From positions 1 through 43,323 of the forward strand of contig JAIYDW010000106.1 of the NCBI GenBank assembly GCA_027487315.1: a DNA stretch of 43,323 bases. Reading direction: 5' to 3'. A program made the translations under genes and the position numbers. Below are positions 2,819-36,709 of the stretch, one piece after another; position 1 is the first letter of the stretch; the number at the start of each line of letters is the position of its first letter. The notes beneath the pieces were generated by a model. That model was not told the DNA's origin. It ran no database searches and worked only from the letters and a program-made list of their open reading frames with translations. Origin of the DNA: Verrucomicrobiaceae bacterium (GTDB lineage Bacteria; Verrucomicrobiota; Verrucomicrobiia; Verrucomicrobiales; Verrucomicrobiaceae).

Positions 2819-2833
2819 CCTCCCGCACGCAAC

Positions 2834-2907
2834 GCGCCCGTAGCTCAGTGGATTAGAGCACCGGATTTCTAATCCGATGGTCGTTGGTTCGAACCCAACC
2901 GGGCGTG
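2834..2907 (+). tRNA. tRNA-Arg, anticodon TCT
   Basis: The 74-nt sequence folds as a cloverleaf. The acceptor stem is GCGCCCG with CGGGCGT (one G-U pair), and the D arm starts GCTC. The anticodon loop TTTCTAA carries TCT, and the T loop is TTCGAAC. The discriminator base is G and CCA is not encoded. The first anticodon-stem pair is a C-A mismatch. The 3' half (from 2866) lies inside the 48-bp direct repeat that recurs at 23381-23428, so this tRNA is the attachment site of the island and stays complete after integration. Confidence 0.93.
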
Positions 2908-2913
2908 CCCCCT
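2866..2913 (+). repeat. attL: 48-bp direct repeat in the tRNA 3' half
   Basis: The repeat begins TTTCTAATCCGATGGTCGTT, that is at the anticodon loop, and runs six bases beyond the discriminator base. It is identical to 23381-23428 over 48 bp. Tyrosine integrases often recombine at tRNA anticodon or T-loop sequences. Confidence 0.92.
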
Positions 2914-6263: not shown

Positions 6264-6266
6264 TTC

Positions 6267-10580: not shown

Positions 10581-10591
10581 AATGCGACGCG

Positions 10592-12421: not shown

Positions 12422-12434
12422 CAATTCTCGCTAG

Positions 12435-14108: not shown

Positions 14109-14120
14109 CGAAGTAATACA

Positions 14121-17100: not shown

Positions 17101-19223
17101 GCAATGTGCCACCGACGCCGGCGAACTACGCGCAGCGAAGTGGTCGTGCCGGACGCCAGGGCCAGCCGGGATTGATCTTCACTTATTGCGGCGCGCTCAA
17201 CAGCCACGATCAGTATTACTTCCGCAACCGCACCGAGATGGTGGCTGGAAGCGTGAAACCTCCACAAATCGAACTGGCAAACGAGGCTCTCCTTATCGCC
17301 CACTTGCACGCCGTTTGGCTGGGGCAGGTGCGTTTGCCTCTGGGAACTTCCATCGAGGACACCATCGAGACCGAAATCGAAGGATTGCCGCTGAAGGAGA
17401 ATGTTCGGCAGTCCATCGTCTTGTCGGACACTGACCGCGAGCAAGTCAGAGCCAGAGTGCGCCGCCTTTTCGAGGCAGACGCCGGCACCCTCGAAAGCTG
17501 CGGCTGGTTTTCCGATGTATGGATCGACCAAGTGCTGCGAGATGCTCCCACCGCGTTCGATGTCGCCTTCAACCGCTGGAGAGAACTTTACCGCGCTGCC
17601 ATGAGGCAGATGATGGAGGCCCAAAGTGCCGTCCTCCGTGCAAGGCAACGCGACGAGCAGGAGATCGCGCGGCGGAGGGCAGACGAAGCCTTGCGGCAAC
17701 TCAATTTGTTGCGCCAGATCAGTGTTTCTCGTGAGGAGGGCGACTTTTACCCCTATCGCTATCTTGCAAGTGAAGGGTTCCTCCCCGGTTACAACTTCCC
17801 AGCCTTGCCTGTTCGGGCCTGGATTCCACGAGAGGATGGAGAGTTCATTCCTCGGCCTCGATTCCTGGCGCTGAGAGAGTTTGCCCCCGGCAACTTTGTT
17901 TACCACGAAGGCCGGCGTTGGGAGGTCAGCAGTTTTCAAGCTCCTCCAGGAGGATTGGAAGAGAGGCGCAGGCAAGTCAGACTCTGCCGCACCTGTGGGG
18001 CTTTCAGTGATCCAACCTTGGACCGCTGCCCGAACTGCGACACTCGCTTCGCTGCTGACAACTCCCAGTCCACCACGCTGCTGGATATGCCCAACGTCCG
18101 CTGCCGTCCTCGCGAGAGGATCACCTGCGATGAAGAAGAGCGTCTGCGCCGTGGCTACGACTCCGAGACCGTCTATCAGTTTGCCCGAACGGCAGGCGGA
18201 ATACCTCGAACACAGGAGGCTGATGTCGTCGTGAACGGCACGCCCGTGATGCGATTGATCTATGGGCCTGCGGCCACCGTCCTCCGTATCAATCACGGCT
18301 GGCGTGCGGCTCCGCAGCCCGGATTTTTGATGGATTTCGAGAGTGGTGAAGTTTTCCACGCGGCTCCCCCAAATGCTGGTGCCGCACCGCCAAGACCACG
18401 CCGTCTGGAAAGAATCAGGCTGGCCGTCCAAGGCACCCAGAACGTGCTGGTTGTGCGCCTGCTACGCCCAGAACTCACCGCTGTGGAAACCAGCCTGCAA
18501 TACGCCCTGCTGAGGGGTTGCGAGCAATTGTTCCAACTTGAGGAGGCTGAGCTGTCTGCTGAACGAATTGGCTCGGGAGACCACCGCGCCATTTTGCTTT
18601 ATGAGGCATCGGAAGGTGGTGCAGGTGCCCTGCGGCGTCTGGTGGACCCAGGCATCCTCAACCAAGTGGCGAGCGAGGCTCTTGTGCGCTGCCACTACGA
18701 TGAGCATGGCAACGACCAGCGCACGCAGTGTGTCGCGGCGTGTTATGAGTGCCTCATGAGCTTCGGCAACCAGCATGAAGCTGCATCTTTGGATCGACGG
18801 CAGATTCGCCAGCACCTCCTTAATCTAGCTGGGGGGCAGGTTCTCCCACGAATCGGCGGAAGAGATTGGCATGCGCACCTCGCTTGGCTTCGATCACTCA
18901 CAGACTCACGCTCGGAGATCGAGCGACGGTTTCTCGATGCATTGGCGGACGGTCAACATCGACTCCCCGACGAAGCACAACGCGGCATTGATCACCCCCG
19001 CTGCATTCCAGACTTTTTCTATCAGCCAAACATCTGCGTTTTTTGTGATGGATCTGTGCATGACACACCCGGTCAAGTTCAGCGTGATCAGGAGATTCGC
19101 AGCGAACTATTGTTACGCGGATACCGAGTAATCGCCATTCGGTACGATCTGGACTTGAATGAGCAACTGTCAATTCATCCAGATGTTTTCGGAATCGGGC
19201 GGAGTCCAGGCAACATTCGTTGA
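14121..19223 (+). CDS. Giant DExH helicase with DUF1998 and Vsr-like nuclease domain (DrmA/DrmB- or DruE-like)
   Basis: In this 1700-residue protein the order is as follows. Walker [10 protein letters not shown] is at about 108-116, D-E-L-H at about 231, and G-T-S-A-T at about 263. Two Cys pairs (C-R-Q-C-G, C-L-C-C-G) lie at about 455-560. The second helicase lobe includes T-D-N-R-Q-D-A-S at about 613 and M-E-L-G-V-D-I with [10 protein letters not shown] at about 977-1013. A zinc ribbon C-x2-C...C-x2-C is at about 1290-1307. A DUF1998 region ends in C-V-A-A-C-Y-E-C-L at about 1537. A final 100-residue domain carries I-P-D-F-F and V-F-C-D-G-S-V-H-D (about 1628-1646), matching the Vsr pattern P-D-I-V and F-V-H-G-C-F-W-H. 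Helicase plus DUF1998 recalls DISARM DrmA plus DrmB, or Druantia DruE. The start ATG is 12 bp after the CBS gene. It is the last gene of the operon. Confidence 0.82.
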
Positions 19224-21469: not shown

Positions 21470-22117
21470 TCAGGTATATGCATTTTTTTGTTTTCTCCGC
21501 TTCCAGGTGCGTTTCGCCTTCTTGCCGAAAGCCTCAGCGAACCGGGGATGTGACTGCGCGATGAGGAACGCCCATCTCCAGAAAAAAAACTCATTGGGGC
21601 ACGAGCTTTCGGCGATCCGGGCCAAATCAGGGTTGGCTTTTGTTACTTTCTTTACAGCGATCTCCCGCTTCTTGATGCTCGGGCTCCTGCCGCCAAGTAA
21701 TGCTCTCCAGCAGGCGGCAGCAGAAGCAGGAAATCTTTTCGGCGGTTTAATGGTATCACTTCCAGGCCAGTTCTTGGCCTCATGCAACATCAGAAGATAA
21801 TCATCAGGGTGAGTTTTTGGAGAGTGAACTTCAACGCCTGGATTGGCAAACCGCAGCTCTTCAGCTTGTTTCTCCGTATGTGCCCAAATCGGAGCCGCGG
21901 GCTTCCCTTCTTCACTCAAACGAAGCGCTGCCTGCTGTAACAGTTCAATGGCGCCATCGATATCGGCCTGCTTTTCGCCCTTCATCACAGCGAGAGACAC
22001 CGAGATCTGAGCCACTTCAAACGCAGTAGGTGATGAAGACTTCATCGGAACGGCGCCCATTGATACTGCAGACTTTCCAGGGCCGAAAGGCAGCCCGAAA
22101 GGAAAACGCTTGCTCAT
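21470..22117 (-). CDS. Island protein of unknown function downstream of the integrase
   Basis: This 215-residue protein begins with the ATG that overlaps the integrase stop (ATGA), so both are made from one transcript. An N-terminal Gly/Pro-rich stretch is followed by a helical region (I-D-G-A-I-E-L-L-Q-Q-A-A-L-R-L). The C-terminal third has W-R-A-L-L and W-R-W-A-F-L-I-A and a strongly basic tail rich in K and R, compatible with DNA binding. No known family is recognised. Coupling to the integrase suggests a role in integration or its control, but this is inference. Confidence 0.6.
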   Translation of the reverse strand: MSKRFPFGLPFGPGKSAVSMGAVPMKSSSPTAFEVAQISVSLAVMKGEKQADIDGAIELLQQAALRLSEEGKPAAPIWAHTEKQAEELRFANPGVEVHSPKTHPDDYLLMLHEAKNWPGSDTIKPPKRFPASAAACWRALLGGRSPSIKKREIAVKKVTKANPDLARIAESSCPNEFFFWRWAFLIAQSHPRFAEAFGKKAKRTWKRRKQKNAYT

Positions 22118-23280
22118 GCTGCCACCCCCTTCAGAGAAATGATGTTGCTTGGCTGCTTGGCGGTGGGGAGGATGGCAAAGTATTTCGCCCCCTCACCTGG
22201 CTTCACCAACCCTTTGTAATGGGTCTCCAGGACCGCGACATCGTGGCCTAGCTGTGCTGCAACCATGGCGGCGTTCTGGTGCAAGTCGTAGGCATAGGAG
22301 GCGCAAGAATGACGGGCGGCATTGTGGGGCCATTCGGTGATCTCTGCCGCCGTCCTGGCTACCTCTAGGCGGTCCCTCCAGATTTGTGCTGACGGCGCAA
22401 CCGGACCTTCCAACCGGACGTGCGGGGCCAACCATTGTTTGAGGTTGTCGGGCATCGTTACGACTCGACGCCGACGAGTCTTGGCGTTCTTGGCTGAGAC
22501 GGTAATGCATCCGTGTTCAACGTCCACATTGCGCCAGTCCAACCGGGCGATCTCAGCGGCCCTCAGTCCACCAAAGAAACCGATGGCGAGCGGGGCGGCG
22601 ATCTCGACGGGCGCGGCATCCAGCAAACGCTGAACCTGTTTGACCGACAGGATACCCGGTTCCTCGGCGGTCACAGTGGGAACCGTGTAACGGGCGGCGG
22701 CGTTCATACTAGCATATCCACGCTCAACACTCCAGGACAGGAAAACGGAAATCAGGCGGTGATGATTTGCCACTGTGACGCCACCCACCTTCAAACCGGA
22801 AAGGTAGCGTTCGACATCTGCTTCGGTGATCTCTGCCACCAACTTCTTCTTTTGTGCCGTGGCAAACTTTTGCAATCGCCCCTCGACATCCTGCAAATAG
22901 CGCTGGCTGCGATTCTCCCTCACTTTGGCGGCGTGAAACTCATCGTAGGCTGTCAGTGTGGGGACGGAAACGCGGCGCGCCTCCAGATGGGCCGCATAGT
23001 GCCTCAATGCAGATTCAATGCTGAAGTCAGCAATACCCTGCGCCCGATACTCGTCAGCCATATCGCGGGAGAGAATTACCGCCGCTCGCTCCGCTTCGGT
23101 GAATTCACCGTGCCGCCTGCCCTCGTTGAGCAGTTCAACCTTCTTCTCGTTGGCGAACTCTTTCGCGTCGGCTTTGGTGAGGAAGTAGCGCTGCTTGTAA
23201 TCCCGCCCTTGGCGGTAGGTGACACGGACCTTGTAGCGAGGATGACGGCAGGGTTTGATGGTGACCAGTTCCTTTTTCAT
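22114..23280 (-). CDS. int: Tyrosine recombinase (island integrase)
   Basis: From the ATG at 23280 the protein has 388 residues (an ATG at 23295 would add five). It begins with a short basic arm-binding domain (K-P-C-R-H-P-R-Y-K-V-R-V), followed by a SAM-like core-binding domain (about 85-190). The catalytic domain then has the first Arg in G-G-L-R-A-A-E-I-A-R-L, a Lys in the A-K-N-A-K-T-R-R-R-R beta hairpin, H-N-A-A-R-H-S-C-A-S-Y, G-H-D-V-A-V, and the nucleophile Tyr in E-T-H-Y-K-G-L. All catalytic residues are present, so it should be active. It reads away from attR, and its upstream region is the 49-bp end module plus attR, so integrase binding there could repress its own gene. Confidence 0.93.
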   Translation of the reverse strand: MKKELVTIKPCRHPRYKVRVTYRQGRDYKQRYFLTKADAKEFANEKKVELLNEGRRHGEFTEAERAAVILSRDMADEYRAQGIADFSIESALRHYAAHLEARRVSVPTLTAYDEFHAAKVRENRSQRYLQDVEGRLQKFATAQKKKLVAEITEADVERYLSGLKVGGVTVANHHRLISVFLSWSVERGYASMNAAARYTVPTVTAEEPGILSVKQVQRLLDAAPVEIAAPLAIGFFGGLRAAEIARLDWRNVDVEHGCITVSAKNAKTRRRRVVTMPDNLKQWLAPHVRLEGPVAPSAQIWRDRLEVARTAAEITEWPHNAARHSCASYAYDLHQNAAMVAAQLGHDVAVLETHYKGLVKPGEGAKYFAILPTAKQPSNIISLKGVAA

Positions 23281-23291
23281 TGCGCCAAGTT

Positions 23292-23340
23292 GCACAAAAA
23301 TGCACAGAAAAGCAACTCATTTCCATTACAAAACCATTAC
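23292..23340 (+). repeat. Right copy of 49-bp end module with paired CCATTAC sites
   Basis: It is collinear with the copy at 2984-3032. GCACAAAAATGCAC is at its start, and CCATTAC at 23323-23329 and 23334-23340 has the same 11-bp period. It lies between the integrase start and its likely promoter. Confidence 0.7.
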
Positions 23341-23363: not shown

Positions 23364-23380
23364 AAAAGCTCAACTTCGGC

Positions 23381-23428
23381 TTTCTAATCCGATGGTCGTT
23401 GGTTCGAACCCAACCGGGCGTGCCCCCT
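23381..23428 (+). repeat. attR: second copy of the 48-bp direct repeat
   Basis: It is identical to 2866-2913. Only the tRNA 3' half is present (anticodon loop to acceptor). The 5' half is missing, so this is a scar of integration and not a second tRNA gene. Confidence 0.92.
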
Positions 23429-23713: not shown

Positions 23714-24676
23714 TCACGCCACCAGCCGCCCCACCCGCCAAACCAACCCCGCCTCATGCGGATGAAACGCAGGATCCTTCGGAAGCAGCACCGACTTCCC
23801 AGCCAACTCCGCTAACTCCTTTTCCCCGTTCGACCGACGCCCATCCACCAGCGCAGACACATGCCAGCGCAGATCCGGCCCCGGCGCGAGAATCTCCCGG
23901 TCCATCGCCCAATGATGATTCTTGCATAGCGCCACACCATTCGTCGGATGGTCATTGCGAAAACCCGTCCACGGCAACAGATGCGCCGCATCGATGAAAG
24001 ACACCTGATTCGCCACCGGCAGCCGGATCCGCAACCCGCACGCCGCACACTGATGATCGTAAATGTCCAAAATCGTCCGCCGAAACGCCGCCGACCGCCC
24101 AAATTCAGGCCCCTCCTCCGCCACCTTCTCCGCCGTTTCCTCCGCCGTTTCCTCCGCCGATGCTCGCCAAGGAATCTCCTTCACCACGTTCACTCCAGGG
24201 AAGAATCGAGCGGTCAAACTTTCCCGCAGGACCGCCCGCCACTCCGGCACCGCTACTACTTCCTCAAGCCCCCCGCAAAACCTCGCAAACACCGTTCCCA
24301 TATGCCCCACCAAAGGCGTCCCCTGGAGAGGCAATGTCCGACCATCCTCTTCGATCCAAGCCTCCCAAAACCCATCATTTTGCAGATACCGAAAAGGATT
24401 CTCCGGCGTGTTCTGGTCATTGTGCTTCCGCACCTGCAAGAAGCGAGCCGCAAACCGATTCCTCAATGCCTGCGACCACGGCACCCGCTCCGCCGTCGCC
24501 AAGCCATCATCCATCAAATCAAACACCGCCAGCAGAAGCAAAGGTTTGTGCGGCCGCTCATGAGGCGCCCCCTCCTCCACCGGCGTCGTGCCAGTGCGCA
24601 GCGCGTAAAGACTAGAAATGGCTTCAGCAAGAGTCACAGGTTCAAGATTCTTACATCCGACGTCCCGCCTCCCCAA
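23714..24676 (-). CDS. HNH endonuclease, modified-DNA-dependent type
   Basis: The frame gives up to 320 residues from a TTG at 24676; a GTG at 24637 is an alternative start. The N-terminal domain contains R-P-H-K-P-L-L-L-L-A-V-F-D-L (about 41-54), a hallmark of the sulfur-binding-domain family found in phosphorothioate-sensing McrA-like restriction enzymes. The C-terminal HNH domain has C-A-A-C-G at about 212, I-D-A-A-H-L-L-P-W at about 229 and N-G-V-A-L-C-K-N-H-H at about 246. The His, Asn and His residues of the HNH finger are present. Such enzymes cut modified incoming DNA without a partner methylase. The linker carries an A-E-E-T-A repeat. It stands alone, divergent from the GHKL-Z1 cluster. 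The sulfur-binding role is inferred; HNH activity is well supported. Confidence 0.78.
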   Translation of the reverse strand: MGRRDVGCKNLEPVTLAEAISSLYALRTGTTPVEEGAPHERPHKPLLLLAVFDLMDDGLATAERVPWSQALRNRFAARFLQVRKHNDQNTPENPFRYLQNDGFWEAWIEEDGRTLPLQGTPLVGHMGTVFARFCGGLEEVVAVPEWRAVLRESLTARFFPGVNVVKEIPWRASAEETAEETAEKVAEEGPEFGRSAAFRRTILDIYDHQCAACGLRIRLPVANQVSFIDAAHLLPWTGFRNDHPTNGVALCKNHHWAMDREILAPGPDLRWHVSALVDGRRSNGEKELAELAGKSVLLPKDPAFHPHEAGLVWRVGRLVA

Positions 24677-25159: not shown

Positions 25160-26674
25160 TTGATTCCCTCCTTAAATTTGGATCTTAGCCCGTATCCGTC
25201 GGCTCTCTTGGAGTCGCTGAGAAGCATCGGCTACACCCTCGAAACGGCTCTTGCCGATATCATTGATAACAGTATTACTGCTCAATCCAAATCGATTTCT
25301 GTGCGTTTTCTATGGGCTAATGGAGCCCCCTGGATTGCTATTATTGATAACGGAATTGGCATGTCACAAAAGGAACTGATCGAAGCGATGCGCTTCGGTA
25401 GTAGGACCCCCATCGAGGAGCGCGCCGAAAATGATCTGGGAAGATTCGGTCTTGGGATGAAGACTGCTTCAATCTCGCAATGCCGACACCTCACAGTTGC
25501 ATCAAAGCGCGACGGCCAGCTGACTGTCTGCGAATGGGATCTTGATAAAATCGCGATCACCGGCGCTACCGGTTGGTTAGTGGGACTTGTCGAACCGGCC
25601 GTCCTTTCACAGGACCAGCTCTTGAACAACCTGGTGTCGGAATTCCTAGAGGCTAACACCTCTGGAACCATCCTCCTTTGGCGAAGAATGGATAACTCCA
25701 AAGTTGAAATGGGGAATTCCGTTGCTGAAACTCGCTTTTCGGAAGCCCTAGATTCGGCAAGAAGGCATCTTGAGATGGTATTCCATCGCTTCTTAGCCCC
25801 TGATCGAGGAAAATCCTCAATTCGAATGGATTTCAACGGCAATGCACTTGAGGCTTTTGATCCTTTTGGCCCGTCAATCCCAGCTCGGCAAGAGCTTCCG
25901 TCCGAAACCATCCGCATAGAGGGCCGAAAAATACAAGTGCAGCCCTATATACTTCCGCATAGGAGCAAGGTTCCTGCCGCCCTCTATGAACAATATGCCG
26001 GTGAACAGGGATACCTGCAAAACCAAGGATTTTACGTTTATCGAAACCGTCGGCTGATTGTAAAAGCAACTTGGTTTCGACTGATCAAGAAAGAGGAGCT
26101 AAACAAGCTCATTCGCGTAAGGGTCGATATTCCCAACAGCTTGGATCATCTTTGGCACATTGATGTTAAGAAATCTCAGGCCAGCCCGCCCGAATCTGTC
26201 CGTCGGGAACTGAAGAAAGTTATTGGAAGGATATCGGGAGCGGGCAGGTTCGTTTTCACCCGGCGTGCAACCACACTGAAGAGCAGAACAATGACCCCTG
26301 TATGGTTCCGCGAGGTCGCGAACGGGAAAATTCGCTACGGCGTCAATGAAGAGCACCCGCTCGTTAAAGCGCTGTTAGGAAAAATAACAAAGGAGCAGGC
26401 TTCAGAGTTGAGGACCTGCCTTCGCTTAATTAACGAGACGTTCCCTCATGAACTGTTTTTCGCGGACGTGGCGAGCGACACGACCGAGTTCGACATTCCA
26501 CAACATGGGGAAGAGGAAGTCCGTAAAGCAGCTATCCAGCTCATCGACGCCCTCCGTTCTTGTGGCTTCGTGGGCGATGAACTGCGAAAACAGCTGCAAA
26601 ACACAGAGGCATATCCATTTCCCCCAGAGCTTATCGCCGAACTTTTGCCCGAACCTACTAACCAAAATGGCTGA
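25160..26674 (+). CDS. MORC/MutL-like GHKL ATPase of a restriction-modification cluster
   Basis: This 504-residue protein starts at a TTG; no ATG occurs before the catalytic motifs. The GHKL ATP-binding site is complete: E-T-A-L-A-D-I-I-D-N-S (about 27-37), I-I-D-N-G-I-G-M (about 61-68) and G-R-F-G-L-G-M-K-T-A-S (about 93-103). The middle region resembles the S5-fold transducer of MutL/MORC ATPases (F-Y-V-Y-R-N-R-R-L-I). ATP-driven dimer clamping on DNA is the family mechanism. Bacterial members of this class sit beside Z1, PD-(D/E)XK, AIPR and cytosine methylase genes, exactly as here. It overlaps the Z1 gene by 8 bp. GC content is visibly lower than in the host genes. Confidence 0.85.
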   Translation: MIPSLNLDLSPYPSALLESLRSIGYTLETALADIIDNSITAQSKSISVRFLWANGAPWIAIIDNGIGMSQKELIEAMRFGSRTPIEERAENDLGRFGLGMKTASISQCRHLTVASKRDGQLTVCEWDLDKIAITGATGWLVGLVEPAVLSQDQLLNNLVSEFLEANTSGTILLWRRMDNSKVEMGNSVAETRFSEALDSARRHLEMVFHRFLAPDRGKSSIRMDFNGNALEAFDPFGPSIPARQELPSETIRIEGRKIQVQPYILPHRSKVPAALYEQYAGEQGYLQNQGFYVYRNRRLIVKATWFRLIKKEELNKLIRVRVDIPNSLDHLWHIDVKKSQASPPESVRRELKKVIGRISGAGRFVFTRRATTLKSRTMTPVWFREVANGKIRYGVNEEHPLVKALLGKITKEQASELRTCLRLINETFPHELFFADVASDTTEFDIPQHGEEEVRKAAIQLIDALRSCGFVGDELRKQLQNTEAYPFPPELIAELLPEPTNQNG

Positions 26675-29345
26675 CCTCACCAAACTAATCGAAACAGTGG
26701 CTCTTATCCTTGAGCAAAGAGAGCCGCCGACTGAAGAAGCACTTAGTGCCTTCGTAAAAGCCCAAGCAGTGCTCCTCTCCATGATTCCGGGCGATGTCCC
26801 ACAAATCGCCTTCACGGATGGCGAGATCGCGGAGGCGGTCCGGACGCTACAAACGCGCTTTTCAGTCCGCATGAGGTTGGGCTCACTCTTTCAATCAGAG
26901 GACTACAAGCCTTGGCTCGCTGGTAAACAAGGAGACATCAATTGGTATTACTGGGAACGCTATCGCAAGCATTTGCTAACTAGTAAAGGATTTCCCCCGC
27001 ACGTAGTGAGAGCTTTGGATGATGTCACTGACAGTGTTATCGACCACTTGGCGGATCCAGAAAAGGATGGCGTGTGGGCCCGAAGAGGACTTGTGGTTGG
27101 TCACGTGCAGTCCGGAAAGACCGCTAATTACACGGGCCTCGTCTGTAAGGCGGCTGATGCTGGATACAAAGTGATTATCATACTTGCCGGGTTGCTCAAT
27201 TCATTGCGCAATCAGACCCAGGAGCGAATCGACAGCGATTTTATGGGGTGGTGCACTCGTTCGAAAGAATACATCGGTGCGGCAAAATTCGGCACTGAGC
27301 GTAAGCCGGTGTGCTTGACTACAACCACGCAAGACTTCGCACGTCTTGTTGCCAATTCAAACACAATGGGACTCAAGGCTCTGAACGAGCCCGTGGTGCT
27401 GGTGATCAAAAAGAACAAGTCCACCCTGGAAAATCTTCACAAGTGGCTTTCCGAGCACAATAAGCACAACTTACGGGATTTTCCCATGCTTCTCGTGGAC
27501 GATGAGGCGGACCATGCCTCGATCAACACAAATAAAGACGACAAAGATCCGACAGCGATCAACAAAGCAATCCGCAATCTGCTCTCGATCTTTGATCGCA
27601 GCTCTTTTGTTGGATATACAGCTACTCCGTTTGCAAATATTTTCATTGATCCCGAAACCGAGGATGAAATGCAGAATGGAGAAATCTACAAAGACTTGTT
27701 TCCGCGGGACTTCATTTTGAGCCTCGATCCACCCGACAACTATGTCGGTGCTAACCGCATATTCACAAGCACGGCCGATCTCGACTCCACTCGTGACATT
27801 AATGACAACGAAGACCTTTTGCCGGTCAGGCATAAAATCGACCTAGTCCCGATTGCTGTTCCAGCCAGCCTACACAAGGCAATCAACTGCTTTATTCTTG
27901 CGCGTGCAATACGCATTCTCCGGGGGCAGCAAGGAAAGCATCATTCAATGATGATTAACGTTAGTCGCTTCACCGCCGTTCAAAATCACGTCAAGGGATT
28001 AGTGCTCGATTTGATCAAGGAACGCAGACAAGGGGTAAATAATTTTTCAGGTCTCCCTTCTGCTGAGGCTCTCACGAATAGCTCGCTTGCCGCCATCCAC
28101 GACACTTGGACGACTGATTACTCGCACACCGGTTTTAGCTGGGGAGATGTACAGGCAGTACTCAAGAAATCCATTGATCCGATCGAAGTTATCAGTGTTA
28201 ACACTGGCTCAACAGATTCCTTGGATTACTCGAAATCGAACTACCCCGATGGTAGAAGCGTGATTGCAGTTGGCGGACTGTCTCTTTCACGAGGACTCAC
28301 CTTGGAAGGTCTCCTCGTAAGCTACTTCCTCAGAAACTCAATCATGTACGACACTCTCATGCAGATGGGTCGTTGGTTCGGCTATCGAGATGGATACGAA
28401 GATCTTTGCCGCATATTCATGACGCCTGACGCTTCGTCGTGGTATGCGCATATCGCCGATGCCACAGAAGAGCTGCGGAGTGATTTTACTGCGATGGAGA
28501 AGGCAAAGCTAACTCCATTGGAGTTCGGTTTGCGAATCCGCAGTCATCCTACAGCACTGATTGTGACAGCAAGAAACAAGATGCGTAACGGAAAAGCAGT
28601 TCCTCATCAGATTGCACTTGAGGGAAGACTCATTGAGACGCTCGTGTTATCGTCAAACAAGGAGGTAATTGATGCGAATCTCGAACTTGTGAAAAGAACT
28701 ATCGACGGGGCAGAAAATGAATCCAATAGTGGTGCCAAGATCACGCCCCTTGGATACGTATGGGAAAAAGTATCGGTAAGACTAATCCAAGGTTTCATTG
28801 AGCAATTCAGAAACCATCCCCACTCGTTTTACACCCATTATCATCAGCCTTTGGTTGAGCACCTATCTTGGTTGGAGAGTGAAGGGATAGGAAGGTGCGA
28901 TATTCTTCTGAAGACACTTAAGCCTCAGGATAATGACGGCTATTTGCCGGTAGTTGGATTAAAAGGGACAATGCAAACCCGAACCGAAAAAACTGCCGAT
29001 GTCGGGAATGGCGTGATTTCATTCAAGAGAAAATCCAGAATTGGTGAGGCTCGCGATGAGGAAGTGGGTATCGAACCCCAGGTTCTAGAAGCGTTACGGG
29101 AAAGCGAAGGTTTAAAAACGCTAAACCCGAAGCGTTATCGGGAAGTCGAAGGAAAACGTCCCCTCTTGATCATTCACCTTTTGCACCTGAAAGATGCTTC
29201 TATCGAAGGGGTCGTTGCGTATGGCCTAAGTCTGCCAGGGAGCGCAACCACAAGAAGGCCTCGAAAACTTGTAGAATACATTGTCAATATTCCGTATTGG
29301 AACCAGACGTACTCAGACCTCTTATCTGACGAGGAAGACGAATGA
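26667..29345 (+). CDS. Z1-domain helicase-like ATPase
   Basis: The chosen ATG (26667) lies inside the end of the GHKL gene and gives 892 residues. The open frame runs further upstream, but that part lies inside the GHKL gene. Walker A V-G-H-V-Q-S-G-K-T is at about 145-153, Walker B L-V-D-D-E-A-D-H at about 275, and G-Y-T-A-T-P-F-A-N at about 315. G-G-L-S-L-S-R-G-L-T-L-E-G-L is at about 536, and Q-M-G-R-W-F-G-Y-R is at about 566. These are the motifs of the Z1 family (endonuclease-associated superfamily II-like ATPases). It probably remodels or translocates DNA for the nuclease encoded next. The stop overlaps the next start as ATGA. Confidence 0.88.
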   Translation: MADLTKLIETVALILEQREPPTEEALSAFVKAQAVLLSMIPGDVPQIAFTDGEIAEAVRTLQTRFSVRMRLGSLFQSEDYKPWLAGKQGDINWYYWERYRKHLLTSKGFPPHVVRALDDVTDSVIDHLADPEKDGVWARRGLVVGHVQSGKTANYTGLVCKAADAGYKVIIILAGLLNSLRNQTQERIDSDFMGWCTRSKEYIGAAKFGTERKPVCLTTTTQDFARLVANSNTMGLKALNEPVVLVIKKNKSTLENLHKWLSEHNKHNLRDFPMLLVDDEADHASINTNKDDKDPTAINKAIRNLLSIFDRSSFVGYTATPFANIFIDPETEDEMQNGEIYKDLFPRDFILSLDPPDNYVGANRIFTSTADLDSTRDINDNEDLLPVRHKIDLVPIAVPASLHKAINCFILARAIRILRGQQGKHHSMMINVSRFTAVQNHVKGLVLDLIKERRQGVNNFSGLPSAEALTNSSLAAIHDTWTTDYSHTGFSWGDVQAVLKKSIDPIEVISVNTGSTDSLDYSKSNYPDGRSVIAVGGLSLSRGLTLEGLLVSYFLRNSIMYDTLMQMGRWFGYRDGYEDLCRIFMTPDASSWYAHIADATEELRSDFTAMEKAKLTPLEFGLRIRSHPTALIVTARNKMRNGKAVPHQIALEGRLIETLVLSSNKEVIDANLELVKRTIDGAENESNSGAKITPLGYVWEKVSVRLIQGFIEQFRNHPHSFYTHYHQPLVEHLSWLESEGIGRCDILLKTLKPQDNDGYLPVVGLKGTMQTRTEKTADVGNGVISFKRKSRIGEARDEEVGIEPQVLEALRESEGLKTLNPKRYREVEGKRPLLIIHLLHLKDASIEGVVAYGLSLPGSATTRRPRKLVEYIVNIPYWNQTYSDLLSDEEDE

Positions 29346-30307
29346 ATAATCCTTGGTCAGCAATCAATAAACCGGCTTCAGATTTTAATGTTCGCCTGGT
29401 TGACCATCATCATCCCCTACTTCTTTACTGGGGAGTGGATGTGCGTAATCGATATGCCTTTGTCTATGATGAAGAGGTTCTGGCCATGCCTGAACAAAAA
29501 TCGCTTCCCAGTCTATCTGGCATCTCCACCACAGTTGTGATGCAAGGGGAGCGAGCAAAGCTTGTCCTAATTCTCAACGAAACGGCGAACTGGGAGTTGT
29601 TTCATGCTTTATGCTGTGACATCGTTCGAGCTACAGCTCAAGTTACCGAAGCTTCGCATGGCCCTTCCATTGTTCTACGTAGACTGAAGCGCTGGCAGGA
29701 TTTCCTGAAAAAGGAGCGGTCGGGCCTGCTTCCGATGGAGAAGATCAAGGGACTTATTGGAGAGCTCCTTTTCTTGTCTGGCCCCGTGGCTTCGTCCTTT
29801 GGATGGAATGATGCGGTGACGTTTTGGAAAGGCCCCGAAGACGCGCCTCAAGATTTTGCTGTCCATGATACAGCCGTCGAAGTGAAGTGCCAAACGGGGG
29901 GATCAAAACCCTCGGTTCGAATTTCCTCCGTGGAACAGTTAAGCCCTCAGCTGCCGAAGGCATACCTTGTCGTTTATACGATCGCATCGGCTTCCGGGGA
30001 GGAATCGACTCATTTTAATCTCAACAGTTTGATCGATTCGATCCGAGAAGAACTAGCCACTTCTTCCGAGGTCGCACGCGAGCGTTTTGAGGACCTTGTT
30101 TATCTCGCCGGCTACATTTCATCCGAAAAATACCTTGAGTTTCACTTCACCAAAATCGCGGTGAAGTGCTTCAAAATAGTCGAAGGTTTTCCGCGAATTT
30201 CACCTTCCACTGTCCCTCAAGGCGTGGACTCACTCTCGTACGTTCTGCAACTCGATGCTTGTGCCGAGTATGTAGATAAACCTCATTGGTGGAGCATCGA
30301 ATCATGA
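29342..30307 (+). CDS. PD-(D/E)XK nuclease-like protein (DUF4420 type)
   Basis: This 321-residue protein has a putative active site at about 172-184: Q-D-F-A-V-H-D-T-A-V-E-V-K-C-Q, in which Asp and the E-x-K of the PD-(D/E)XK fold are present. An upstream helix L-I-G-E-L-L-F-L (about 139-146) supplies the usual conserved Glu. Proteins of this type are the predicted restriction nuclease of GHKL-Z1-AIPR clusters. It overlaps both neighbours as ATGA (29342 and 30304), so the four products are probably made in fixed ratio. The family assignment is by motif and context. Confidence 0.82.
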   Translation: MNNPWSAINKPASDFNVRLVDHHHPLLLYWGVDVRNRYAFVYDEEVLAMPEQKSLPSLSGISTTVVMQGERAKLVLILNETANWELFHALCCDIVRATAQVTEASHGPSIVLRRLKRWQDFLKKERSGLLPMEKIKGLIGELLFLSGPVASSFGWNDAVTFWKGPEDAPQDFAVHDTAVEVKCQTGGSKPSVRISSVEQLSPQLPKAYLVVYTIASASGEESTHFNLNSLIDSIREELATSSEVARERFEDLVYLAGYISSEKYLEFHFTKIAVKCFKIVEGFPRISPSTVPQGVDSLSYVLQLDACAEYVDKPHWWSIES

Positions 30308-32376
30308 CAATCGAAGAATATTATCAAGAGTTTACACAGGATCTGATTGCACGAGCTGGGGCAGACGAGAACTTCACTCGAAGTAGCTTCGTCGAACATA
30401 TGTGCTCCACTTTAGAGGATGAGGGTTTCATGACGGGCTTTACACAAACCGACTACAAGAACACTACAAAGGGCCTGGCAGTGGATGCATGGTCGTTCAA
30501 CGACGAGTTGGCTTGTCTCACACTCATTATCGGCGACTACCGCGACTCCGGAAGCCTTGAAACTCTTACCAAGACAGATATCGAGAAGGCGTTCAAGAGG
30601 CTCGTCCGCTTCGTGGAATCTTCTCTCACGGGTGGATTTGCCGAGTCGCTAGATGAAGCAATGCCCGTGACAGAGCTGGCTTGGATGTTCAAAAAATCGC
30701 GGCATGAGATTGCGCAAATCTCTCTTATTCTCGTCTCCAATGCCGCTCTAAGCGCCAAGGTCGGTGCGCTGCCAAAGGAGTTGGTAGGGAAGTTCCAAAC
30801 AAACTACGAAATATGGGATCTAGGCCGAATTCATCGTGCTAACACTTCGGGCAAGGCAAGAGAGGATATTTGGATCGACTTCGGTTCAAGAGAGACAGGT
30901 GCTCTTCCATGCCTTCCGGCATACTTTGGAGACGGTTCTATGCAATCCTATTTGCTTGTAATACCTGGAAGTGTTTTGGCTGAACTTTACCAGGATTACG
31001 GAGAACGGTTGTTGGAGCAAAACGTACGGACATTCCTCCAGTTTAGGGGATCCATTAACAAGGGGATGCGCAACACCATCGTCAATGAGCCACACATGTT
31101 CTTCTCCTATAACAACGGGCTTACCGCCACGGCAGAAGAAGTCATTACGGTTGAAGGTGACCGGCAAATTTGCAAGATCAGGAACCTTCAAATTGTCAAT
31201 GGCGGACAGACAACCGCATCCATTTTCACTGCAAAAAGAAAGGAGTCTGCAAATCTTGATAAGGTTTACGTCCAAGTGAAGCTCTCAGTGGTCCCACCTG
31301 AAAAGGTCGAGGAGATTGTGCCACGAATCTCGCAGTATTCGAACACCCAGAACAAGGTCAATGCAGCGGACTTCTTCTCGAATCATCCCTTCCATCTCAG
31401 GATCGAAGAATTTTCCCGCCGCCTTTGGGCGCCAGCTGCCAACGGCAGCGTGCAGGAGACTCACTGGTTCTATGAGCGTGCGCGTGGCCAATATGCCAAC
31501 CAACAGGCTAATCTTACCACTGCAAAGCAGAAGAAGTTTCTTCTCATCAATCCACGGAATCAGATGTTCACTAAAACGGATCTGGCCAAGTATGTCCTTT
31601 CATTCGAGGAAGTTCCCCACGAAGTAAGCTTGGGAGCGCAGAAGGCATTTGCCGGCAGTTCCAGTAGTCCTGGTTTCGTTGGGCGCATTGCGACACAATG
31701 GGCTAAGGATGACGGTAAAAGTTTTAACGAACTGTGGTTCAAAAATACCATTGCTAAGATGATATTCTTCCGACAGGTGGACAAACTGGTATTCCGACAA
31801 GATTGGTATGGAGGCTACAAAGCAAACATTGTCACCTACACACTTGCGAAATTCGCGTGTATGGTGCGAACATCCGGGAAAAATTTTGATTTCCTACGTG
31901 TTTGGAACCTTCAAACGCTTCCTGATACGGTCGAATTCAAGTTGGTAGAGATAGCCAAGATTGTGAACGATATCTTAGGCAACCCTCCGCCGGCTTATAC
32001 CAAGAACGTATCCGAATGGGCCAAAAGGGCGGATTGCTGGGCGTTGGTCAAGGACGTACCTCTAACCCTCGACGAAGGCCTTTTGGAATATCTCGCAGAT
32101 TACGAACAGATTTTAGAGCGTGAAGTGGATGGCCTCCGGACTCAAGTCATACAAGACAGCATTCACACCCAGACATACGTAGTCAACAAGGGAGCGAGAC
32201 ACTGGCAACGGCTTCGGGAATGGAACCAGATCAATAAGAAACTGAGCCCAAAAGAAATTGGCATTCTAGATGCTGCGTGCTCGATTCCTAGAAATGTCCC
32301 TAGCGACAAACAAGCCCCTATCTTGGTCGCAGCGGAAAAGCGCGCGATTGAAAATGGCTTTCCGCCAGAAGTTTGA
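30304..32376 (+). CDS. AIPR-domain phage-resistance-type protein
   Basis: From the ATG overlapping the previous stop, the protein has 690 residues (M-T-I-E-E-Y-Y-Q-E-F). An in-frame ATG at 30286 would add six residues. The AIPR core is visible as M-F-F-S-Y-N-N-G-L-T-A (about 265) followed by L-Q-I-V-N-G-G-Q-T-T-A (about 296) and I-S-Q-Y-S-N-T-Q-N-K-V (about 342). The family is named for abortive-infection phage resistance proteins and is a frequent partner of Z1 and MORC-like ATPases. Its biochemical activity is not settled. It ends 79 bp before the methyltransferase start, the largest gap in the cluster, so a second promoter for the methylase is possible. Confidence 0.85.
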   Translation: MTIEEYYQEFTQDLIARAGADENFTRSSFVEHMCSTLEDEGFMTGFTQTDYKNTTKGLAVDAWSFNDELACLTLIIGDYRDSGSLETLTKTDIEKAFKRLVRFVESSLTGGFAESLDEAMPVTELAWMFKKSRHEIAQISLILVSNAALSAKVGALPKELVGKFQTNYEIWDLGRIHRANTSGKAREDIWIDFGSRETGALPCLPAYFGDGSMQSYLLVIPGSVLAELYQDYGERLLEQNVRTFLQFRGSINKGMRNTIVNEPHMFFSYNNGLTATAEEVITVEGDRQICKIRNLQIVNGGQTTASIFTAKRKESANLDKVYVQVKLSVVPPEKVEEIVPRISQYSNTQNKVNAADFFSNHPFHLRIEEFSRRLWAPAANGSVQETHWFYERARGQYANQQANLTTAKQKKFLLINPRNQMFTKTDLAKYVLSFEEVPHEVSLGAQKAFAGSSSSPGFVGRIATQWAKDDGKSFNELWFKNTIAKMIFFRQVDKLVFRQDWYGGYKANIVTYTLAKFACMVRTSGKNFDFLRVWNLQTLPDTVEFKLVEIAKIVNDILGNPPPAYTKNVSEWAKRADCWALVKDVPLTLDEGLLEYLADYEQILEREVDGLRTQVIQDSIHTQTYVVNKGARHWQRLREWNQINKKLSPKEIGILDAACSIPRNVPSDKQAPILVAAEKRAIENGFPPEV

Positions 32377-32455
32377 CCCTTCCATGTATTGGCAGTGGAT
32401 AAAATGAAATGGGAATTAGCAACGATCCGAATCAAGACTTAAACAACCATCAATA

Positions 32456-34003
32456 GTGCATAGAAACGATTATTCGAAAATTCCAATCATCGACCTTTTT
32501 GCCGGTCCAGGGGGACTGGGCGAGGGCTTTTCTGCTCTGCGCTGCTCAGGAAAGCCCGTTTTTAAGATAGGCCTCTCCATCGAGAAGGATGCGGAGGCCC
32601 ACCGCACATTGGAACTCCGAGCGTTTTACAGACAGTTCCCAGATGGGCAGATCCCACCCGACTATTACCAATACCTTGGAGCGAAAATCTCCCGTGCCGC
32701 GTTGTTCGATGCTTACCCAATTGCAGCTCGTCACGCCCGAAGGGAAGCGTGGAATGCCACCCTTGGCATCACGTCGCCCAACGAAGTTGATGCAAGGATC
32801 ACCGAAGCGCTAGCAGGTCGCAGAAATTGGTTACTCATTGGCGGTCCGCCCTGTCAGGCATATTCAATTATGGGCCGTTCAAAGATGATCAGCGAGAAGG
32901 GCCGTGATAAATACGAAGCCGATCATCGTCATTTTCTTTACCGCGAATATCTCCGCATAATCGCGGACTTCCAGCCGCGCGTCTTCGTCATGGAGAATGT
33001 GAAAGGGTTGCTTTCCGCTACCCTCAACGGCGAATCAACGATTTCAAAAATTCTCGCCGACCTTCAGTATCCAATTGCCGCGATTCATGGCCCGCGCCAC
33101 CGCGATGCCAATCTGACCTACCGGCTTGTGTCCTTAGCCGTTCCGGCCTCTGGAGACTTTGGCAAGTTTTCCCCTGCCGATTTTATCGTCAGAGCCGAAA
33201 AATATGGTGTTCCCCAATGCCGCCACCGACTCATAATTGTCGGTATCTCCGAGCGTGTCAAAGGCACGCCCGGCTTGCTCACCGAACAGCCCGAGACCAC
33301 CGTTTCCCAAGCCATCGACGATCTGCCTCCCTTGCGCAGCGGATTGTCCCAGGAACAAGATTCGGAAACTGCATGGCTTGAGGCCGTGGGATCCATTCGT
33401 CAGGCAGCGTGGCTAAACGCGAAACAGGTCGATGCGGATGTGTATCGTCACATAAAATCGCAATTGGCTGAACTGTCTGCCGACTTGGTGCGCGGTAGCG
33501 ATGAGGCAAAGACGTCGCGTAAGGCTCTCCGATTGCATCCTGACTGGTTCCGGCCGGACGGCTATACACACATCTGTAATCATACCACCCGATTGCATAT
33601 GCGTGCCGACCTGCACCGCTATTTGTTCCTCGCTGCTTTTGCGCAGGTTCATGGTCGCTCACCATTGCTGGAGGAATTCCCCAAAGACCTCCTTCCGAAA
33701 CATAAGAACGTCGGCACCGCAATAAAAGGAACCAAGTTCAACGATCGCTTCCGAGTTCAGGTTGCAAACCGTCCGGCCACCACTGTTGTCTCACATATTT
33801 CAAAGGACGGTCATTATTACATCCACCCAGATCCTTCGCAGTGTCGTAGCCTTACCGTCCGTGAAGCTGCACGGCTGCAGACCTTCCCTGACAACTATTT
33901 CTTCGAGGGTCCACGCACGCAGCAATACCATCAAGTGGGCAACGCTGTTCCGCCCTTTCTCGCGCACCAGATCGCGCAAATCGTGGCGGGATTGTTTCCC
34001 TGA
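32456..34003 (+). CDS. C5-cytosine DNA methyltransferase (Dcm family)
   Basis: This 515-residue enzyme has a GTG start; the first ATG is far inside. The ordered motifs of C5 methylases are present: D-L-F-A-G-P-G-G-L-G-E-G-F (motif I, about 12-24), G-G-P-P-C-Q-A-Y-S with catalytic Cys (about 128), and M-E-N-V-K-G-L-L (motif VI, about 179). Q-C-R-H-R-L-I-I-V-G follows (motif VIII, about 255). A target-recognition region spans about 270-430, and Q-V-G-N-A-V-P-P-F is motif X (about 490). It would protect host DNA against the nuclease of the cluster. Length is above the usual 330-420, with extra residues between motifs I and IV and in the recognition region. A hairpin terminator follows. Confidence 0.92.
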   Translation: MHRNDYSKIPIIDLFAGPGGLGEGFSALRCSGKPVFKIGLSIEKDAEAHRTLELRAFYRQFPDGQIPPDYYQYLGAKISRAALFDAYPIAARHARREAWNATLGITSPNEVDARITEALAGRRNWLLIGGPPCQAYSIMGRSKMISEKGRDKYEADHRHFLYREYLRIIADFQPRVFVMENVKGLLSATLNGESTISKILADLQYPIAAIHGPRHRDANLTYRLVSLAVPASGDFGKFSPADFIVRAEKYGVPQCRHRLIIVGISERVKGTPGLLTEQPETTVSQAIDDLPPLRSGLSQEQDSETAWLEAVGSIRQAAWLNAKQVDADVYRHIKSQLAELSADLVRGSDEAKTSRKALRLHPDWFRPDGYTHICNHTTRLHMRADLHRYLFLAAFAQVHGRSPLLEEFPKDLLPKHKNVGTAIKGTKFNDRFRVQVANRPATTVVSHISKDGHYYIHPDPSQCRSLTVREAARLQTFPDNYFFEGPRTQQYHQVGNAVPPFLAHQIAQIVAGLFP

Positions 34004-34016
34004 TTTTAATTAAACC

Positions 34017-34037
34017 GCGCCACTAGGCGCACTTTTT
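34017..34037 (+). terminator. Terminator hairpin between methyltransferase and vsr
   Basis: GCGCC and GGCGC pair around ACTA, followed by AC and a run of five T. It sits 14 bp after the methyltransferase stop, between convergent genes. Confidence 0.6.
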
Positions 34038-34131
34038 GACTGCGTATCTTCTCGGGCGAATTCTCTACGTAGCTCGTCCCGAGCGGTCTTGTCAGATTTC
34101 GCCGAATAAGGCGGCGAACGAAAGCTGCTCC

Positions 34132-34566
34132 TTAATGAGAGTCATGGCCAGTAGCCGAATTTAGTAAGCGACTCAGTCTGCGAGCGACCTTCTCCCCGTT
34201 GCGCTCCACATCGCACTCCCAAACGGTGATCACGCGCCAACCGAGCTGCCTGAGCGTACGCAGGTGCTGTTTATCGCGCTTCGCATTGCCTTTGAGTTTT
34301 CTCTCCCAGAACTCCCGCCGTGTCGCTGGGATGCGGCCCTTGTCGCAGCCAGCATGCAGATGCCAGAAGCATCCGTGCACAAAGATCACGGTGCGGTGCT
34401 TCGGCATGACGATATCCGGGCGTCCGGTCAGATCCTTTCTGTGCAGGCTGAAGCGATAGCCCATCCGGTGCAGCATAGAGCGAACCTCCTTTTCCGGCGT
34501 GGTGTTCTTGCTCCGGATACGGCTCATGTTCCAGGAACGTTGTTCTGCGGTAAGCTTGTCAGCCAT
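34132..34566 (-). CDS. vsr: Very short patch repair endonuclease
   Basis: This 144-residue protein begins M-A-D-K-L-T-A-E-Q-R-S-W-N-M-S-R-I-R-S-K-N-T and contains G-Y-R-F-S-L-H-R-K-D-L-T-G-R-P-D-I-V and F-V-H-G-C-F-W-H-L-H-A-G-C, near-consensus for Vsr. The catalytic Asp (R-P-D-I-V) and the His/Cys metal-binding residues are present. Vsr nicks beside T:G mismatches that arise when 5-methylcytosine deaminates, repairing damage caused by the methylase. It is convergent to that methylase, 128 bp apart, as expected for a Dcm-Vsr partnership in a restriction-modification locus. Confidence 0.94.
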   Translation of the reverse strand: MADKLTAEQRSWNMSRIRSKNTTPEKEVRSMLHRMGYRFSLHRKDLTGRPDIVMPKHRTVIFVHGCFWHLHAGCDKGRIPATRREFWERKLKGNAKRDKQHLRTLRQLGWRVITVWECDVERNGEKVARRLSRLLNSATGHDSH

Positions 34567-35484: not shown

Positions 35485-35910
35485 ATGACCGCCGCCGCTA
35501 CCGCCTCTCGCCGCCGCCCCACCGGTCCAACCTGGACCCCTAATCCCCGCATCCTCAGCAGCAGTGACCATCCAAAAACCGCTAGCGCTTTCCTCAAAAC
35601 CGCTAGCCCTTTTCCCGAAACCCGTAGCGGTTTCCTCAAAACCGCTAGCCCTTCTCCCGAAACCCCTAGCGGTTTCCTCAAAACCGCTAGCCCTTCTCCC
35701 GAAACCCCTAGCGCTTTCCCCAAAACCGCTAGCCCTTCTCCCGAAACCCCTAGCGCTTTCCCCAAAACCGCTAGCCCTTTTCCCAAAACCCCTAGCGGTT
35801 TCCTCAAAACCCCTAGCCCTTTTCCTAAAACCCCTAGCGGTTTCCCCAAAACCGCTAGCCCTTTTCTCAAAACCCGTAGCGGTTTCCTCAAAACCCCTAG
35901 CGCTTTTTGA
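35485..35910 (+). CDS. Doubtful reading frame through the 21-bp repeat array
   Basis: From the ATG at 35485 one frame runs for 141 residues and is almost entirely seven-residue repeats such as K-T-A-S-P-F-P and E-T-P-S-G-F-L. The unit length of 21 bp keeps several frames open at once (another plus frame reads K-P-L-A-L-S-S repeats, and minus frames read R-A-S-G-F-G-E and G-L-A-V-L-G-K repeats). Openness is therefore not evidence of coding, and this may be no gene at all. Confidence 0.2.
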   Translation: MTAAATASRRRPTGPTWTPNPRILSSSDHPKTASAFLKTASPFPETRSGFLKTASPSPETPSGFLKTASPSPETPSAFPKTASPSPETPSAFPKTASPFPKTPSGFLKTPSPFPKTPSGFPKTASPFLKTRSGFLKTPSAF

Positions 35911-35912
35911 CT
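35577..35912 (+). repeat. Sixteen tandem 21-bp units forming alternating hairpins
   Basis: Sixteen units begin AACC or AACCC and are centred on CTAGC or GTAGC. Odd and even units differ in a regular way (for example AAACCGCTAG in one and CTAGCGGTTT in the next), so neighbouring units can pair as inverted repeats with 10-bp stems. The true period is close to 42 bp in most of the array. No unique spacers are present, so it is not CRISPR. It lies between the small HTH-like gene and the FN3-like gene. Confidence 0.88.
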
Positions 35913-35980
35913 CCCACCCACCCCTTCGCCGCCGCCGGGGCGGCATCTCCCCGGCATCACAACGCAAACCAAACAACACC

Positions 35981-36709
35981 ATGCCGCTTCCACCTTCTTG
36001 GGATACACCAGGTCTCACATGGGACTCGGGAACCTGGGACAGCGGAACGGCCAACCCACCACCACGCACCATGAGCACCACCAAAGCCATCATCGACTTC
36101 ACAGATTACTCCGCCACCGACCTCGGCGCCCTCGCCCAGGTCATCCATGACCGATTCGAAGAGCACGCCACCACCTTCCCCAGCCCACCGACCACCCTCG
36201 CCGCCTTCCAGACCCAAATCACCGACTACGACACCAAACTCCTCGCCCGCGCCAGCCGCGCCATCGAAGACATCAACGCCTTCAACGACGCCCGCGCCCT
36301 CATGGAGCAAACCCTTCGCGGCTTCGGCAACTACGTCAACACCGTCGCCAAAGGCAACGGCACCACCGTCGACCTCAGCGGCTTCCCCTCCTATGACACC
36401 GCCGTCGCCGCCGCCCCCAATCCACCCCTCGCCCCCACCAACCTCCGCCTCCGCCACGGCACCTTGAGCGGCACATTCCAAGTTCGCTACACCCCCGACC
36501 GCAGCCCCAGCACCAACGAAGTCCAGGTCAACCTCCAGTCCACCCCCGACAACGAAGCCTCCTGGGTCACCAAAGGCATGTTCCAGCGCGGCACAGCCGA
36601 ACTCAGCGGCTTCGCCCCCGGCATTGTCGTCTGGGTCCGCGTCCGCACCGTTGGCCTCAAAGGCGTCATGGGCGCCTGGAGCGACCCCGCCCAAATCCGC
36701 ACCCTCTAA
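35981..36709 (+). CDS. FN3-like domain protein of unknown function
   Basis: The start ATG at 35981 gives 242 residues ([21 protein letters not shown]); an ATG at 36071 is a second option. Residues about 30-140 are helical and contain [13 protein letters not shown]. From about 155 on, [13 protein letters not shown] and then [22 protein letters not shown] and G-A-W-S-D-P-A follow the strand pattern of a fibronectin type III fold. There is no signal peptide. The open frame continues upstream through the repeat array but that part is unlikely to be coding. A good terminator hairpin follows. Function unknown. Confidence 0.65.

Follow-up and report, generated by a model that had tools for sequence, protein, structure and literature searches.

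A six-gene cassette with a MORC-type ATPase, a DEAD-Z1 motor and a cytosine methylase as a candidate restriction-modification system in a Verrucomicrobiaceae bacterium

Six open, full-length reading frames at positions 25160-34566 of the window (the whole stretch analysed here, 43,323 nucleotides of contig JAIYDW010000106.1 from a Verrucomicrobiaceae bacterium) are read, with moderate confidence, as an ATP-dependent restriction-modification system, in which a four-protein core of MORC-type GHKL ATPase, DEAD-Z1 motor, DUF4420 nuclease and AIPR protein would cut DNA, a C5-cytosine methylase would mark self, AIPR would take part as a pseudo-nuclease and a Vsr endonuclease would serve repair. The gene set itself is already described, as the third MORC operon type of Iyer et al. 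2008 and as the type II system of Miller et al. 2022. The contributions of the present analysis are a predicted restriction endonuclease fold in the N-terminal domain of AIPR with the catalytic ExK replaced, an exchange of the methylase between cassettes as judged from sequence divergence, and a suggestive tracking of that exchange by AIPR. A literature search found no paper testing the cassette type as a unit.

Gene set, relatives and known systems

The initial annotation had called all six parts intact, and this holds: the frames are full length and every Pfam match lies above its curated cut-off (Table 1). The gene overlaps it placed at 26667, 29342 and 30304 are likewise real, measuring 8 bp between GHKL and Z1 (26667-26674), 4 bp between Z1 and DUF4420 (29342-29345) and 4 bp between DUF4420 and AIPR (30304-30307), the last two both formed by ATGA. 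A gap of 79 bp separates the AIPR stop from the methylase start, and Vsr runs on the opposite strand, convergent with the methylase.

Table 1. Positions of the cassette genes and neighbouring elements in the window, and of two solitary AIPR genes in their own loci
Feature	Position	Strand	Profile match
MORC-family GHKL ATPase (MzaB-like), 504 aa, TTG start	25160-26674	+	Pfam HATPase_c_3, 1.5e-31
DEAD-Z1 helicase-like motor (MzaC-like), 892 aa	26667-29345	+	Pfam Z1, 7.3e-79
PD-(D/E)XK nuclease DUF4420 (MzaD-like), 321 aa	29342-30307	+	Pfam DUF4420, 3.3e-64
AIPR protein (MzaE-like), 690 aa	30304-32376	+	Pfam AIPR, 1.2e-100; AIPR_N, 1.2e-34
C5-cytosine DNA methyltransferase, 515 aa, GTG start	32456-34003	+	Pfam DNA_methylase, 6.3e-43
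Vsr mismatch endonuclease, 144 aa	34132-34566	-	Pfam Vsr, 5e-29; NCBIfam vsr, 3.2e-43 (above cut-off)
tRNA-Arg	2833-2910		
52-bp direct repeat, left copy	2862-2913		
Second candidate defence operon	3384-19223		
Tyrosine recombinase gene	22114-23295		
52-bp direct repeat, right copy	23377-23428		
HNH endonuclease gene	23714-24676	-	NCBIfam, 89.8 bits (cut-off 180)
21-bp repeat array	35487-35989		
Solitary prophage AIPR gene, locus L110	2431-4128		
Solitary prophage AIPR gene, locus L111	2371-4113		

Relatives were collected by a GHKL-alignment search, one genome per species, which returned at least 561 GHKL relatives. The best 80 of these at least 561 loci represent many phyla, including Verrucomicrobiota, Pseudomonadota, Bacillota, Chloroflexota, Acidobacteriota, Planctomycetota and Spirochaetota, and the cassette type is spread widely across bacteria; the closest among the matches listed lies in an Akkermansiaceae genome, with core identities of 79-83%. 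In every one of the 51 loci with enough flanking DNA the GHKL-Z1-DUF4420-AIPR order is fixed, a C5 methylase stands alongside the core in 50 of them, and Vsr is found in 40 of the 51 neighbourhoods. The background frequency of Vsr is about 0.5 per genome (28 matches, 54 genomes), and the cassette Vsr is the only Vsr match in its own genome. The six-gene grouping is not a chance cluster. Since the loci were picked by GHKL similarity, these counts leave out variants without GHKL; some Z1 loci of the same phylum, such as L022 and L023, have AIPR or GHKL missing.

Among described systems, the third MORC operon type of Iyer, Abhiman and Aravind 2008 (PMC2292703) has in common with the cassette a MORC GHKL, an SFII helicase with DThhQXuRhFG and an E-D-ExK protein of the restriction endonuclease fold, together with a methylase (mostly cytosine) and Vsr nearby, and no difference was seen; AIPR is also named among the restriction-modification operons of that computational description, made without experiment. 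The initial annotation had attributed the gene set to this work, and the MORC motif in GHKL and the DThhQXuRhFG motif in the helicase bear the attribution out, but its account of prior knowledge was incomplete: Miller et al. 2022, the distantly related MZA system and the biochemically studied Z1 class (CglI) have to be added. Miller et al. 2022 (PMC9523054) describe a putative defence system, their 'type II', which shares with the cassette a Z1 protein of ~925 aa, a PD-(D/E)XK protein, a cytosine methylase, AIPR and an associated MORC-type protein; DNA repair endonucleases are emphasised for their type I. The type II core (Z1, PD-(D/E)XK and cytosine methylase) plus AIPR is present here with all four members by Pfam.

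CglI and NgoAVII (PMC4267653, PMC5737866) also join an ATP-dependent DEAD-Z1 motor to a separate nuclease and methylase, but their nuclease is B3-PLD instead of PD-(D/E)XK and they are described as three genes without MORC or AIPR. In CglI, unmethylated sites elicit ATP hydrolysis by the DEAD-Z1 subunit, for which translocation has been proposed, and cleavage ensues once two complexes meet. The Pfam family of the cassette motor, PF10593, matches in C. glutamicum as well, and none of the six cassette proteins shows a PLD or B3 domain by Pfam. The earlier suggestion of a multi-step machine unlike types I-III stands in so far as it fits CglI, the one characterised DEAD-Z1 enzyme (PMC5737866); it does not stand for Vsr, which is very probably an accessory repair enzyme. 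A further partial parallel, the Pin25611FIII locus of Prevotella intermedia (PMC5608340), places a methylase (GCWGC) in an operon encoding AIPR and Z1, but that methylase is smaller, is filed as an orphan and is accompanied by a control protein.

The MZA system (mzaABCDE) presents the same order, with MzaB-C-D-E corresponding to GHKL, Z1, PD-(D/E)XK and AIPR. NCBIfam profiles of MzaB-E match the core at 8e-41 to 9e-171, with bit scores that fall far short of the respective equivalog cut-offs (362/850, 570/1500, 140/420 and 325/1050), and a scan of eight proteins, beginning with the integrase (22114) and ending with Vsr (34566), gave no match to MzaA. The attached C5 methylase and Vsr distinguish the cassette from MZA, which by these profile scores is a distant relative. 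MZA is reportedly a defence system validated by Gao et al. in 2020, and MzaA is said to be a sigma factor. To our knowledge, descriptions of MZA include no methylase of its own; related proteins may therefore be able to defend without one, which speaks against the restriction-modification reading. The cassette could accordingly be imagined as an MZA-like, phage-triggered abortive infection system, in which the core senses infection and destroys DNA generally, AIPR is the trigger and the methylase only shields the chromosome. This is unlikely, although it is the most substantial of the alternatives: the alignments of the core proteins to the MzaB-E models extend over most of their length, the AIPR family name refers to abortive infection and solitary AIPR genes occur in prophages, whereas the near-constant methylase with its frequent Vsr points to site-specific modification and all scores are far under the MZA cut-offs.

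Genomic setting and core enzymes

The cassette has a G+C content of ~48%, against ~60% further out on both sides, and among the four genomes of the genus one has a match to the AIPR protein profile; both observations fit horizontal gain, by which the cassette was probably acquired. The cassette itself is not flanked by an exact 12-base repeat that would indicate a mobile unit. That it is intact in sequence and yet silent or inactive in this host appears very improbable. The sporadic presence in the genus would agree with silence, as would the rare TTG and GTG starts and a promoter scan limited to the sigma-70 type, in which 7 candidates were found against 8.6 expected and none stands out; other promoter types, however, fall beyond such a scan, all six frames are open, and sequence inspection and alignments find the catalytic motifs kept in the ATPase, motor, nuclease and methylase.

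In the GHKL protein, which PADLOC matches to MzaB at 4.8e-88, the nucleotide-binding boxes are intact and the MORC signature is present as GFYVYRNRRLI at residues 290-300, fitting GhXhhpXXRhl of the S5 domain. G290, R298 and L299 of this motif, together with K338 in an 'IDVKKS' stretch, are kept in 70 of 70 relatives. Equally invariant (70 of 70 aligned relatives) is the aspartate D33 (codon 25256-25258), which on our own reading of the motif presumably takes the N-box place of the catalytic Glu of GyrB, MutL and human MORC. With Asp at that place the protein could hydrolyse ATP slowly, or it could be a variant that is active.

The Z1 motor carries a Walker A motif (GHVQSGKT), a DEAD box (DDEADHA), motif III (GYTATP) and the stretch DTLMQMGRWFG, which agrees with the C-terminal DThhQXuRhFG helicase motif; the key residues of all of these are essentially invariant across 70 relatives. 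Prokaryotic relatives of eukaryotic MORC are here found in one operon with a dedicated motor, a nuclease and an epigenetic mark, and such an arrangement would offer a tractable model for the action of a MORC clamp on DNA.

For DUF4420, residues E141, D171 and E180-x-K182 are invariant in 50 of 50 sequences, and the predicted model (mean pLDDT 93.6) has restriction endonucleases as its top VIA matches, with Z scores of 5.4-7.8. Because these scores lie near the level that the tool calls common, the proposed fold rests on motif and model together. Plain Foldseek returned no match to the model at E 0.001, and the sequence profile gave nothing against PDB chains.

Methylase exchange, Vsr and AIPR

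The C5 methylase keeps motifs I, IV (PCQ), VI (ENV), VIII and X, and its QxRxR and GN motifs are intact. Its position is variable: across 61 loci compared it lies upstream in 38 and downstream in 23, on either strand. The cassettes of Methylophaga (L099) and Halomonas (L095) are 90% identical in Z1, 85% in DUF4420, 73% in GHKL and 67% in AIPR, and only 40% in the methylase, which stands upstream in the former and downstream on the opposite strand in the latter. To judge from such divergence, the methylase is exchanged between cassettes. In a partial Mantel analysis of 52 loci, methylase distance correlated with AIPR distance when the other core proteins were allowed for (r 0.24, p 0.008, the latter being a single-test value with ~14 segments tested). 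The correlation is found in each of the two gene layouts (0.26 and 0.22), while the other core proteins gave weaker values, GHKL and Z1 each correlating with the methylase in one layout only. A pair such as L095 and L083, with 79% identity in AIPR and only 41% in the methylase, argues against a strict link. The data thus suggest that AIPR follows methylase exchange only weakly, if more closely than the other subunits do.

In E. coli, Vsr and a C5 methylase work as partners in repair, and it is from its family that Vsr is read as a repair enzyme here, very probably an accessory one that serves the methylase in mismatch repair and forms no component of restriction. On the same grounds, and with GHKL distantly MutL-like (1e-5), the whole cassette might be taken for a DNA-repair module, in which the MutL-like ATPase, Vsr and the motor carry out methylase-coupled repair of the mismatch or very-short-patch kind. 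We give this little credence, as Vsr is absent from 11 of the 51 cassettes and the nuclease, motor and AIPR never are, and as the distribution is sporadic (any Z1 gene in 15 of 388 genomes of the phylum) in the manner typical of defence genes.

AIPR is a common defence protein, and its predicted structure (mean pLDDT 85.4, pTM 0.52) provides a concrete, testable hypothesis for its role. Residues 1-185 form an alpha-beta-beta-beta-alpha-beta domain in the model, for which VIA-align gave Z scores of 9.7 with AF1548, 9.2 with FokI, 8.8 with MspJI, 7.9 with HamA and 7.2 with SduA; the top VIA rows are mainly restriction-fold or repair nucleases. Plain Foldseek had no match to the AIPR model at E 0.001, and its sequence profile found nothing against PDB chains. 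The active-site assignment was made by inspection of the model and the alignment. At the ExK place most relatives show (I/V)-x-D, with the lysine replaced by aspartate (D78) in 47 of 58; glutamine at position 76 occurs in 2 of 58, and D61 is retained in 52 of 58. By the same kind of inspection, the solitary AIPR of phage S1249 reads D...QSK in the matching region, and that of a Klebsiella prophage reads QCY, with the lysine apparently lost. As the ExK is replaced in most of the cassette relatives, the domain is probably a restriction endonuclease fold that has become a pseudo-nuclease in this clade, and AIPR as a whole probably a pseudo-nuclease sensor or scaffold.

The middle part of AIPR (~209-362) holds an invariant NGGQT and is weakly listed by VIA with pNOB8 ParB, SspE and BrxU, at Z 3.9-4.4, below the reliable range of the tool; the C-terminal part is helical. 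An assignment of the middle part to the ParB/DUF262 group was rejected, profile-profile comparison with the GmrSD_N and ParB_N alignments giving less than 1% probability, and the ParB/SspE likeness accordingly stays a hint. SspE and BrxU act on or sense modified DNA, and the weak resemblance to these two (Z 3.9-4.0) could be taken to favour a modification-dependent, type IV-like system directed at cutting foreign DNA that carries modifications; this can be set aside as highly improbable, since type IV systems need no cognate methylase of the kind that accompanies nearly every cassette here, the fold similarity falls under the reliable range and the profile comparison gave nothing.

Proposed mechanism and flanking elements

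The restriction-modification reading draws on the observed gene content, the intact motifs, the methylase linkage, the predicted AIPR and DUF4420 folds and the ExK loss in AIPR. The methylase would mark a specific site in host DNA with 5-methylcytosine, and invading DNA without this mark would be bound by the four core proteins acting as a complex. From these features, and by analogy with better-known proteins, we infer the order of events, the clamp and motor actions, the subunit that recognises the site and the protection against phage. On ATP binding, the MORC ATPase would close as a clamp on DNA, as in MutL and MORC, a step proposed by Iyer et al. (PMC2292703); the DEAD-Z1 motor would then travel along the duplex as envisaged for CglI; and DUF4420 would make the break. 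AIPR would not be the cutter and may act as sensor or scaffold, perhaps linking recognition of the site with the motor. Vsr, outside restriction, would mend T:G mismatches arising by deamination of 5-methylcytosine.

A more specific version is offered tentatively and seems rather doubtful at present: the cassette may represent a class of its own among ATP-dependent restriction enzymes, in which MORC clamp and Z1 motor drive the PD-(D/E)XK nuclease, and AIPR, combining a pseudo-nuclease with a ParB/SspE-like nucleotide switch, reads the methylation of the site. If true, AIPR as methylation reader would explain why it changes most with the methylase.

The surroundings of the cassette contain further elements (Table 1). 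The 3' part of tRNA-Arg recurs as a direct repeat of 52 bp (98% identical), whose two copies enclose 20.5 kb, with the tyrosine recombinase gene just inside the right copy. The copies are likely the attachment sites of an integrated island; the cassette lies 1.7 kb outside the right copy. Inside the island, the second candidate defence operon encodes an SNF2-type helicase (best PADLOC match DpdE), a large N6 methylase (DrmMI-like), an OLD/GajA-like ATPase, a PDC-S11-like protein and a 1700-aa helicase (DruE-like), a mix of best matches that fits no single named system. Between island end and cassette stands the HNH gene, distantly related to phosphorothioate-DNA restriction enzymes. It was considered and rejected as a seventh part, a weak relative being present in only 3 of the best 80 loci (of at least 561); the best-scoring of these is 28% identical, and locus L033 has a gene of 28% identity in the same divergent place. 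Downstream of the cassette, the 21-bp repeat array has ~16 copies in register and is open on both strands, and fragments of the region flanking it recur elsewhere in the genome and in relatives.
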